Shown here: positions 14,330 to 18,923 of the stretch, piece by piece
How positions within the stretch are numbered: the stretch's first letter is position 1
Layout: the number at the start of each line of letters is the position of its first letter
Assembly (NCBI GenBank): GCA_018830135.1
Contig: JAHJTB010000159.1
Span: forward strand, 1-34,207
DNA length: 34,207 bases
Source: Pseudomonadota bacterium
Lineage (GTDB): Bacteria; Desulfobacterota; Desulfarculia; Adiutricales; JAGVGV01
Direction: 5' to 3'
Made by a program: the position numbers and the translations under genes
Notes under the pieces: generated by a model
What the model saw: only the letters and a program-made list of their open reading frames with translations
Databases searched by the model: none
What the model was told of the DNA's origin: nothing

Positions 14330-14737
14330 TCAGCCCATGTCCATGATCGGCCGGACTTCGGTGATGTCAAAGGCCACGGCCGCGGCCATCATTTTGGCCG
14401 CGGCCGGACCGGCGTGCTGGGCGATCATCTCCCGGACCTGGTCCAGAAGCTGACCTTCGAACTGGATTTCCCGAGCCTTGAGGTAAAGCCGGGTCCCTTT
14501 GGTCCCGAAGGTGACCGGGGCTTCCTCGACGCAGAAAAATACGGCATGGGGATTGGCCTCCAGGTTCTTCAGGGTTCGGTTTCGGGCCAGCCCCACAGTG
14601 AAAGTGCCATCCTCCTGCAGGCGCAGGCTGCCGAAATAGGCCACGTTGGGTCGGCCCTCGGCGTCGACCGTGCTCAATGTCCCCACCCGGCCGGGCTTGT
14701 TGATGGTGGCCTTCAGTTCCTCGGAAACTACCGCCAT
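14330..14737 (-). CDS. pyridoxamine 5'-phosphate oxidase-fold flavin protein
   Basis: A 135-residue split-barrel FMN-binding protein. The start is ATG 14737, giving MAVVSEELKATINKPG, because AAGGAG lies 8 bases upstream; a longer reading to 14830 adds only low-complexity residues. Typical PNPOx-like features are GTLSTVDAEGRPNVAYFGS, TFTVGLARNRTLKNLEANP and AVFFCVEE. Family members reduce or bind flavin-dependent substrates, and the substrate here is unknown. The gene is convergent with DUF169. Confidence 0.85.
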   Translation of the reverse strand: MAVVSEELKATINKPGRVGTLSTVDAEGRPNVAYFGSLRLQEDGTFTVGLARNRTLKNLEANPHAVFFCVEEAPVTFGTKGTRLYLKAREIQFEGQLLDQVREMIAQHAGPAAAKMMAAAVAFDITEVRPIMDMG

Positions 14738-15075
14738 GACCGATGCTCCTTTTCGTGATCGGGATGGTCCGGCCAGGACTCCGGCCCGTCCGGACCCGTC
14801 CATCTTAACCGGGCGGGCCGGAGAAGGCAAGGAGCCCTTTTCCCTCTTTCGGGGCGTCAGAAAATTAAATTTTTCCGGGTGAATCCGGGCCGATCGGCTT
14901 CGGGGCGGGGCCCGGTCCGGGCCCCTGAATTTGAGAAAAATATCTCAAGCAGGCGGGCGACCGGGAAAGCGGCCTGGCAAAACAGAATACGCCAATTTAA
15001 TAATGCCATTGAAAACAGGATGATATGATTTATCGAGTCGTGTAACTTTTTAGAGAAAAAAAAACGAAAAAAGAG
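14738..15075. other. gene-free stretch with inverted repeats
   Basis: No convincing gene. A perfect 9-base inverted repeat around one central base lies at 14907-14925 (GGGGCCCGG-T-CCGGGCCCC). Another at 14931-14948 reads TTGAGA-N6-TCTCAA and could be an operator. From about 14860 to 15075 the base composition turns AT-rich compared with the flanks. Confidence 0.5.
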
Positions 15076-15101
15076 TTGACAAGAGCGAAAGGTTGTAATA
15101 G
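15076..15101 (+). promoter_or_regulatory. candidate promoter
   Basis: A perfect -35 box TTGACA is at 15076-15081. The following region GTAATAGG offers -10-like TAATAG (15096-15101) at a short 14-base spacing, or TAGGTT at 17. The surroundings are AT-rich. It stands immediately before the palindrome at 15118. The -35 is convincing, the -10 less so. Confidence 0.45.
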
Positions 15102-15117
15102 GTTTCGCATCCTAAAA

Positions 15118-15135
15118 TGAATGACAGATCATTCA
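15118..15135. promoter_or_regulatory. perfect palindrome, FadR/TetR-type operator
   Basis: TGAATGA-CAGA-TCATTCA is a perfect 7-base inverted repeat with a 4-base centre. The half-sites and spacing equal the core of the operator described for the Bacillus TetR-family fatty-acid regulator FadR (TGAATGA-N4-TCATTCA). It lies just downstream of the TTGACA promoter, where a repressor would block transcription. The TetR gene at 18285 is a candidate binder, by inference only. Confidence 0.6.
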
Positions 15136-15190
15136 TACGGTTGTCGGCCTGAAAAACGACTCGAAACGGCAGCCAAAAGGAAAGCAAGGA

Positions 15191-15370
15191 ATGAGGCATC
15201 ACGACCCGAAAATAGACCTGAAGGCAGCCGTCGATCAAGGCGGCCGTCAAGGGGAACCGGAAACCGGTCGGCCTCGCCGGTCTCCAATGAACTTTGCCAT
15301 CTCCACCAAGCGGATGGCTAATGGCCATGTCCTGGACAGGTCGGGCCACCCGCTTTTTATCCTATCATAA
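15191..15370 (+). CDS. possible small ORF of 59 codons
   Basis: ATG 15191 to TAA 15370 encodes a basic 59-residue peptide with no family I recognise. The second half, from MNFAISTKRM to HPLFILS, is less biased than the first. A purine-rich AAGGAAAGCAAGGA run precedes the ATG. The ORF is bracketed by a promoter and operator upstream and a UUCG-loop terminator 10 bases downstream, so the region is probably transcribed. It may equally be a non-coding RNA, because a terminator-like stem overlaps its end. Confidence 0.3.
   Translation: MRHHDPKIDLKAAVDQGGRQGEPETGRPRRSPMNFAISTKRMANGHVLDRSGHPLFILS
15309..15358 (+). terminator. terminator-like stem with U-run
   Basis: AGCGG-A-TGGC (15309-15318) pairs with GCCA-C-CCGCT (15345-15354) with one A/C mismatch, followed by TTTTT. 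The 26-base loop contains its own small stem, TGTCC-T-GGACA. The loop is longer than usual, so it may be a structured RNA 3' end rather than a simple terminator. Confidence 0.45.
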
Positions 15371-15379
15371 ATCCCTCAT

Positions 15380-15400
15380 CGGTCCTTCGGGACCGTTTTC
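15380..15400 (+). terminator. intrinsic terminator with UUCG loop
   Basis: CGGTCC-TTCG-GGACCG (15380-15395) is followed by TTTTC. A 6-base perfect stem capped by the very stable UUCG tetraloop plus a U-run is a textbook intrinsic terminator. It closes the unit that begins near 15100. Confidence 0.75.
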
Positions 15401-15418
15401 CCACCTCAACAACCCCTC

Positions 15419-15455
15419 GGGGGGGCCGAAAGGCCCCCCTTGATTCTTCTTGGCC
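15419..15455 (+). terminator. second intrinsic terminator, GAAA loop
   Basis: GGGGGGCC-GAAA-GGCCCCCC (15420-15439) is followed by TTGATTCTTCTT. The perfect 8-base stem has a GNRA tetraloop and a U-rich tail. It lies in tandem with the UUCG terminator, 25 bases downstream, and insulates the DUF3786 gene. Confidence 0.7.
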
Positions 15456-15508
15456 CGGATCGAGAAAAGGGTTTACCGAACCGTCACAAATATGTTAATT
15501 GAACGACC

Positions 15509-16123
15509 ATGTTTCGCTCCGATGCTCCCACAAACTACGAGGATGTTTATCGTGGCCTGGTGGACCGCCTGGCCGGTGCGGACTACCGTCATGCCATGAT
15601 GTTTCTCGGGGCGCGGGATGCCGGCGAAGAGGTCGCCCTGGACGTCCTGGGGCGGACCTGTCTGGTCGGACCGGGCGGCGTCCGTTCGGCGGACCAGGGG
15701 CCGCTGGATTTCACCGTGCGTATCGTCGTGGCCTACTACATCCTTCACGGGGGCAGCGGCGAATCGGGCCGGAAATGGGTCTCCTACCGGGATTTCAAGG
15801 ACGGCGCCTTTTTTCACGCCACCTTCAGCCAGATCGTGGAAAACAAGATCGCCACGGATTTTTCGGGCCGGCCGGCCCGATTGCGCCAGGCCGGCGAAAG
15901 CCTGGGGTGCTATCTTTTGGAAGCAGACCTGGGCGGAGATATCTGTCTGGGGTTTCCAGCTTTGCCCCGCGTACCGCTGGCCCTGGTTTTTTACGACGCG
16001 GACGAGGATTTTCCGGCTTCGGCCCGCGTTTTGTTTGACGAAACCGCGCCCCGATATCTGGACATGGAGTGCCTGGCTGTTTTAGGCCTGATCCTGGCCG
16101 ACCAGTTGCCGGTTTCCGGTTAA
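15509..16123 (+). CDS. DUF3786 domain protein
   Basis: A 204-residue cytosolic protein of the uncharacterised DUF3786 family, found mostly in sulfate reducers and other strict anaerobes. Family-like features are the tyrosine-rich IVVAYYILHG, WVSYRDFKDGAFF, FPALPRVPLALVFYDADEDFP, and PRYLDMECLAVLG at the C terminus. No function is established. There is no clear ribosome site before ATG 15509, and a -10-like TATGTT lies about 20 bases upstream, so a very short leader is possible. It begins about 70 bases after the tandem terminators, and so has its own promoter. Confidence 0.85.
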   Translation: MFRSDAPTNYEDVYRGLVDRLAGADYRHAMMFLGARDAGEEVALDVLGRTCLVGPGGVRSADQGPLDFTVRIVVAYYILHGGSGESGRKWVSYRDFKDGAFFHATFSQIVENKIATDFSGRPARLRQAGESLGCYLLEADLGGDICLGFPALPRVPLALVFYDADEDFPASARVLFDETAPRYLDMECLAVLGLILADQLPVSG

Positions 16124-16260
16124 ATACGATCGCTGTCGCGCCATCCGGTCCGGCTGGTCCTCCCGGCCGCCGAGCAGGAGGGGCCAAGGGGACGGCCGGG
16201 CTGATCCTGGCGACCACGGACGAGTCCATACGGCGATTTGAGGAAAAATCGAGGAGGCTT

Positions 16261-18252: not shown

Positions 18253-18284
18253 AATTAAAGAAAAGAATGAAGGAGGTAAGGGCC

Positions 18285-18923
18285 ATGGCGACCTCTTTAA
18301 GCGACGGGGCCGTATTGCCGCAAACCCCGAGCGTCCATATTGTCGACTCCGAATCCAGACGGATCAAAAAGCTCATTATCGAAGCGGCCAGCGAACTGTA
18401 CGAAAAAAAGGGCCTTCATGAGACATCGGTCGGAGAGATCGCCGAAAAAGCCGGCATCAGCGTCCCGGTGACCTATCATTACGTCCGGCGCAAATCCGAT
18501 ATCATGCTCCTGATCATGGAAGATTTCACCCATCAGATCAAAGACCATATCCCGCCGAAAATCGAGTCCCTCCCCGGACCCCGCGAAAAACTCGTAGCGG
18601 CCATCGAAATCTTCTACGGCCTGGTCCACCAAAACATGGGCAAGGTCGTCCTGGTCTACCGAAAGTCCCGGACCCTGGACCGGGTCGGCCGCTCCAAGAT
18701 CATGGCCGACGAAGCCGAGCACATTCAGATTTTCGAGGGCATCATCGAAGAAGGCATCCAGGCCGGTGTGTTCAAGCGCGTGGACGTCAACCTGATCGCC
18801 TACAACATCCTCATGGCCGGACATGCCTGGGCCCTGAAACACTGGCACTTCAGGAAGCGTTTCGATCTGGAACATTACGTGCGGCGGCAGACGGACTTTA
18901 TCCTCAGCGCCATTTCCGCCTGA
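18285..18923 (+). CDS. TetR/AcrR-family transcriptional regulator
   Basis: A 212-residue repressor-type regulator. The start is ATG 18285 with AGGAGG 8 bases upstream; an ATG at 18267 lies before the ribosome site. The N-terminal helix-turn-helix runs from IIEAASELYEKKGLHETS through VGEIAEKAGISVPVTYHYV to RRKSDIM. The C-terminal domain (VYRKSRTLDR, HIQIFEGIIEEGIQAGVF) resembles fatty-acid or acyl-CoA-responsive members. It could control the palindrome at 15118 or the acyl-CoA operon at 20.5-30.1 kb, but neither link is shown. A strong inverted repeat follows its stop. Confidence 0.9.
   Translation: MATSLSDGAVLPQTPSVHIVDSESRRIKKLIIEAASELYEKKGLHETSVGEIAEKAGISVPVTYHYVRRKSDIMLLIMEDFTHQIKDHIPPKIESLPGPREKLVAAIEIFYGLVHQNMGKVVLVYRKSRTLDRVGRSKIMADEAEHIQIFEGIIEEGIQAGVFKRVDVNLIAYNILMAGHAWALKHWHFRKRFDLEHYVRRQTDFILSAISA

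Follow-up and report, generated by a model that had tools for sequence, protein, structure and literature searches.

A predicted FadR-controlled transcription unit in a Desulfarculia genome and its possible small RNA product

The regulon of the TetR-type FadR is known from Bacillus and its relatives, and release of the regulator from DNA by acyl-CoA is a property of this FadR family. Background on these regulators is found in PMC6449355. The transcription unit described here shares with that regulon the operator palindrome, the regulator family and the position of the repressor site in the promoter. The difference lies in the product: the regulon members that could be assigned in our searches are protein genes, whereas no protein gene is plausible in the unit.

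The closest known regulators are FarS and FadZ, fatty-acid small RNAs that originate from mRNA 3' ends and work with Hfq. FarS of Vibrio cholerae resembles the unit in that a small RNA is connected with FadR and the metabolism of fatty acids, and the Vibrio FadR acting on it is of the GntR type. The two differ in that FarS is activated by this unrelated FadR, whereas the unit has its own promoter, would be repressed and is located in a genome in which no Hfq was found. According to the report on FarS, RNase E cuts it from the fabB mRNA and it acts together with Hfq (PMC9438474). FadZ of Salmonella is likewise made during fatty-acid degradation, and it is described as an RNA of approximately 40 nt from the fadBA 3'UTR, Hfq-dependent and activated by CRP, with FadR repressing the parent transcript (PMC10703908). 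No 3'UTR origin of this type was found for the unit, since there is no parent gene on the plus strand at the locus and no Hfq in the genome. In a sulfate reducer 37 non-coding RNAs have been predicted (PMC11124144). Searches of the openly licensed literature brought up no stand-alone small RNA controlled by a TetR-type FadR.

The 34,207 nt of DNA analysed, here called the window, form contig C91 in the 6.8 Mb genome of an uncultured Desulfarculia-type bacterium, assembled in 562 contigs with a completeness of 95.7% and a contamination of 6.2%. The unit is flanked by a pyridoxamine-oxidase-like gene on the minus strand (14330-14740) and a DUF3786 gene on the plus strand (15509-16123). At this place the first-pass annotation had drawn a small transcription unit, complete with promoter, operator and terminator-like hairpins. 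All its elements (TTGACA, operator, ORF, stem with T-run, UUCG and GAAA hairpins) were located again (Table 1), the claim is well supported, and the regulator can be named as FadR. Judged from the sequence, control of this transcription unit by FadR is very probable.

Table 1. Predicted features of the unit and of the region preceding the DUF3786 gene (positions in the window)
Feature	Position	Strand	Basis
-35 element TTGACA	15076-15081	+	sequence, promoter score
-10 element TAGGTT, 17-nt spacer	15099-15104	+	promoter score, layout as in FadR promoters of relatives
Proposed main transcript, non-coding RNA of ~245 nt	15111-15358	+	ends inferred
Predicted FadR operator TGAATGACAGATCATTCA	15118-15135	no strand	operator matches in the genome and in relatives
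59-codon ORF, AAGGA 9 nt before ATG; probably untranslated, or dual use	15191-15370	+	homology, codon score
T1, long hairpin with interruptions and a U-tract (-25.8 kcal/mol), within the ORF and ahead of its stop codon	15308-15358	+	fold energy
T2, 6-bp UUCG hairpin (15380-15395) followed by TTTT	15380-15399	+	hairpin scan
T3, 8-bp GAAA hairpin (15420-15439) followed by broken T-run TTGATTCT	15420-15449	+	hairpin scan, generic terminator scan
Candidate DUF3786 proximal promoter element ATATGTTAA, without Shine-Dalgarno sequence	15490-15508	+	conserved in L033 and L061

The operator is an 18-bp palindrome, TGAATGA-N4-TCATTCA with CAGA in its centre, embedded in a 20-bp inverted repeat (15117-15136), and resembles the B. 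subtilis FadR consensus. It perfectly matches the palindrome preceding fadR-etfB and fadB genes in relatives of the class and occurs once in the whole genome, against 0.003 occurrences expected in 6.8 Mb from base composition. The operator is located just downstream of a sigma-70-type promoter, which is the layout of FadR promoters in the class. With an approximate sigma-70 matrix, the promoter scored 11.9, while 3000 87-mers drawn at random from the window had 95th and 99th percentiles of 8.1 and 10.5. Among the 24 promoters compared, the best match contains an exact TTGACA in 18 cases, and the gap between the -10 element and the operator is mostly 0-13 nt (13 nt in the window). Transcription would start near 15111. 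A generic scan of positions 14500-16200, requiring 9 of 12 matches, returned no promoter against 0.8 expected. A 9-bp inverted repeat (15033-15041/15156-15164) was set aside, as by our own estimate a region this large should contain approximately one such match.

The FadR of this genome is encoded on contig C104 by a TetR regulator gene followed by the gene for the electron-transfer flavoprotein beta subunit (etfB). The closest PDB structures to this regulator are those of Bacillus FadR (E 9e-40 to 2e-38), and its NCBIfam FadR model score of 193.6 bits is slightly under the cut-off of 200. The TetR protein encoded in the window itself (18267-18923) is unlikely as the regulator, its recognition helix being unlike that of FadR and its score on the FadR model being 58 bits. 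Operators with one mismatch occur at three further places in the genome: before the TetR regulator-etfB pair on C104, upstream of an acyl-CoA dehydrogenase gene on C395 and near a glycosyltransferase gene on C465. The last two have promoter scores of 6.0 and 7.5, under the 95th percentile of the null, and are not good promoters by the score used. When two mismatches were allowed, the whole genome gave 21 forward matches vs. one for the reversed control pattern.

A second palindrome family, TGA(C/T)TGA-N4-TCA(A/G)TCA, was also observed in this genome (L077, L079, L081, C488 and C497) and probably belongs to another TetR regulator. At L077 the palindrome is upstream of a gene that by eye resembles a branched-chain amino-acid permease.

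In the relatives, the perfect palindrome was present in 22 of 62 genomes and the control pattern in none. Seventeen loci from eight relatives (L113-L129) were examined. One site precedes fadR-etfB in all eight relatives fetched, and a fadB-type gene is behind the palindrome in six loci (L117, L120, L122 and L127 by Pfam; L115 and L129 by N-terminal sequence match only); L123 and L125 are without gene assignment. In G001, the one further member of the family that these searches covered, the palindrome precedes an acyl-CoA dehydrogenase gene. Twelve further loci all have one mismatch, and several of these, placed within genes or at a distance from them, look chance-like. At the level of the phylum, TTGACA followed 18-42 nt later by the palindrome was found in 83 of 395 genomes, with no match of the control pattern among the genomes listed. 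A Shine-Dalgarno-started ORF of at least 100 aa was found within 1.1 kb downstream in 28 of 30 phylum FadR-promoter loci by a crude test that often picks internal starts (in L169-L171 the ORF is 476-603 nt away). The window is an exception, and L180 could not be judged from its 145 nt of sequence.

Two observations concern other genes behind such sites. In genus g24, a perfect FadR promoter-operator is located 476 nt (L169, G063:C32) and 603 nt (L170, G137:C3) upstream of a gene identified by eye as aprB-like, and the leader has conserved blocks close to this gene; a FadR site before an aprB-like gene would link sulfate reduction with fatty-acid supply. In G001, a one-mismatch site (L144:2081-2098, contig C343) is upstream of genes for a MetF-like protein (by eye) and a FAD-oxidoreductase (HdrA-like).

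The region behind the operator is rich in structure. Positions 15119-15449 have a more stable fold than any of 100 shuffles (z -3.2). The T1 hairpin spans 15308-15355, with its T-run at 15354-15358, and is by itself not exceptional, ranking seventh by energy among 217 window hairpins before T-runs. T2 and T3 are the sole same-strand pair of perfect-stem, T-followed hairpins less than 100 nt apart in the window, and eight Markov shuffles contained no such pair. The generic scan of 14500-16200 returned one terminator, the last of the three (T3), vs. 3.0 expected.

The first-pass annotation had left the choice between peptide and RNA open, and the evidence now leans towards RNA. The length of the ORF is unremarkable, as the window contains 209 ORFs of at least 50 aa. 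Against 395 phylum genomes the peptide gave 48 other matches at E <= 0.1, where approximately 40 are expected by chance, and none was above chance; viral contigs gave nothing beyond chance and Pfam no family. With a codon model trained on 19 window genes (5579 codons) the ORF scored -0.094 per codon. Real 58-codon segments have a mean of 0.28 (sd 0.12), and only 1.3% of the 156 are as low, while among 357 out-of-frame open segments 36% reach the score of the ORF. Its own base shuffles are as high in 0.2% of cases, which leaves room for some coding-like trend. In addition, T1 with its U-tract extends only to 15358, ahead of the stop codon at 15368-15370. Termination at T1 would therefore leave the ORF without a stop codon, and the transcript ended there would not be a proper mRNA for it. 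Because the ORF has no homologue, non-coding-like codon usage and a stop codon beyond T1, the product is most likely a non-coding RNA.

It could be argued that the unit is the FadR-controlled mRNA of a 59-aa orphan protein, with ribosomes overriding T1 and T2 and T3 serving as the real terminators. The AAGGA before the ATG and a codon score above 99.8% of the base shuffles are in line with this, and all other FadR promoters with an assignable gene drive proteins. We regard an orphan protein as unlikely, however, given how few real segments score so low, the absence of a homologue beyond chance in the 395 genomes and the missing stop codon in a transcript ended at T1.

The DUF3786 gene is on the same strand, 373 nt separate the operator end from its start codon, and the FadR promoter 476-603 nt upstream of aprB in genus g24 suggests that long leaders may exist. 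The unit might thus be a regulated leader of this gene, with T1-T3 as attenuators. Relatives of the gene are found in L033 and L061 (proteins 65-67% identical), and AAATATG(T/A)TAA shortly before the ATG is common to these and the window, while a Shine-Dalgarno sequence is absent in all three. This fits a leaderless mRNA which, judging from the conserved sequence, would have its own promoter and start at the ATG. Upstream of the L033 and L061 genes there is no FadR unit; by eye, the stretch there looks like divergent coding sequence. Because the DUF3786 gene appears to have its own conserved proximal promoter element without a Shine-Dalgarno sequence, the leader explanation is very improbable.

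The RNA part showed no conserved sequence or structure in about 60 relatives. In a DNA search of 60 relatives, the non-self matches listed were only approximately 16-40 nt long, the best of them (E 5.5e-5 over 27 nt) falling on the T3 hairpin. A single-sequence covariance model of T1 and T2 found itself alone at E <= 0.1 in 62 relatives. No Rfam family, 6S RNA included, reached its gathering threshold, and permissive-threshold matches were far below the gathering scores; 6S RNA (RF00013) was not detected in this genome rated 95.7% complete. The first-pass annotation had named missing conservation of ORF and stems in related genomes as one half of what would speak against it, and this half holds, since no homologue of either was found in the genomes searched. 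This lack of conservation, together with the absence of the unit at the matching position in L033 and L061, would also suit a relic in which the promoter and terminators of a lost FadR-regulated gene survive and give a functionless transcript. A relic is nevertheless rather improbable: the operator is perfect, whereas the sites that precede fadR and the acyl-CoA dehydrogenase gene in this genome have one mismatch each, the promoter score points to an intact promoter, and the transcribed part folds better than all its shuffles.

We therefore favour, as just on the probable side, the reading that the FadR regulon here includes a small-RNA gene standing on its own, whose RNA would serve the fatty-acid response through Hfq-free base pairing. 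Hfq (PF17209) was not found in the genome by a search that detected it in 5 of 14 control genomes, and because of this an Hfq-free mode must be assumed. When acyl-CoA is scarce, a FadR dimer on the operator would cover the start region of the promoter and block transcription. During fatty-acid degradation acyl-CoA would free FadR, and a structured transcript of approximately 245 nt would be made, ending at T1, with T2 and T3 as back-up terminators that may shield the DUF3786 gene behind. The RNA could then act as the post-transcriptional arm of the fatty-acid response. Pairing of the RNA with 24 gene start regions revealed no significant target. The strongest pairing, with a flavodoxin-like gene (z -2.65), is not beyond chance across 24 tests, and pairing with the starts of fadR, etfB and the acyl-CoA dehydrogenase gene was unremarkable among them.

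A comparable arrangement is found in G001. Its contig C240 (L143:2407-2735) carries a one-mismatch FadR site with a promoter score of 17.1, the best of the 24, and the 277 nt behind this site contain no plausible gene, although small ORFs are present. Positions 2443-2600 fold strongly (z -7.1 vs. base shuffles), these approximately 160 nt consisting of two strong hairpins with C-rich stretches between them and no clear U-tract behind. The stretch precedes a Sua5-like gene that by eye seems to have its own promoter. It has no Rfam match and no relative with a substantial match. Homology between the window RNA and this stretch was rejected, as 164 of 500 shuffles reached their local alignment score, and the stretch is at most an analogue of the window unit. 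On the basis of these two loci we tentatively propose, as a possibility on the unlikely side, that in this Desulfarculia-type family the TetR-type FadR controls small RNAs which evolve fast, stand alone and do not depend on Hfq.

With FadR as its predicted regulator and acyl-CoA as its predicted inducer, an anonymous unit becomes directly testable. If the small-RNA reading is true, the unit would represent a promoter-driven small RNA directly repressed by a TetR-type FadR, and one more independent link between a small RNA and fatty-acid metabolism, found in a genome without recognisable Hfq. If such RNAs are indeed made at both loci, an RNA arm of the acyl-CoA response would have arisen independently of FarS and FadZ.
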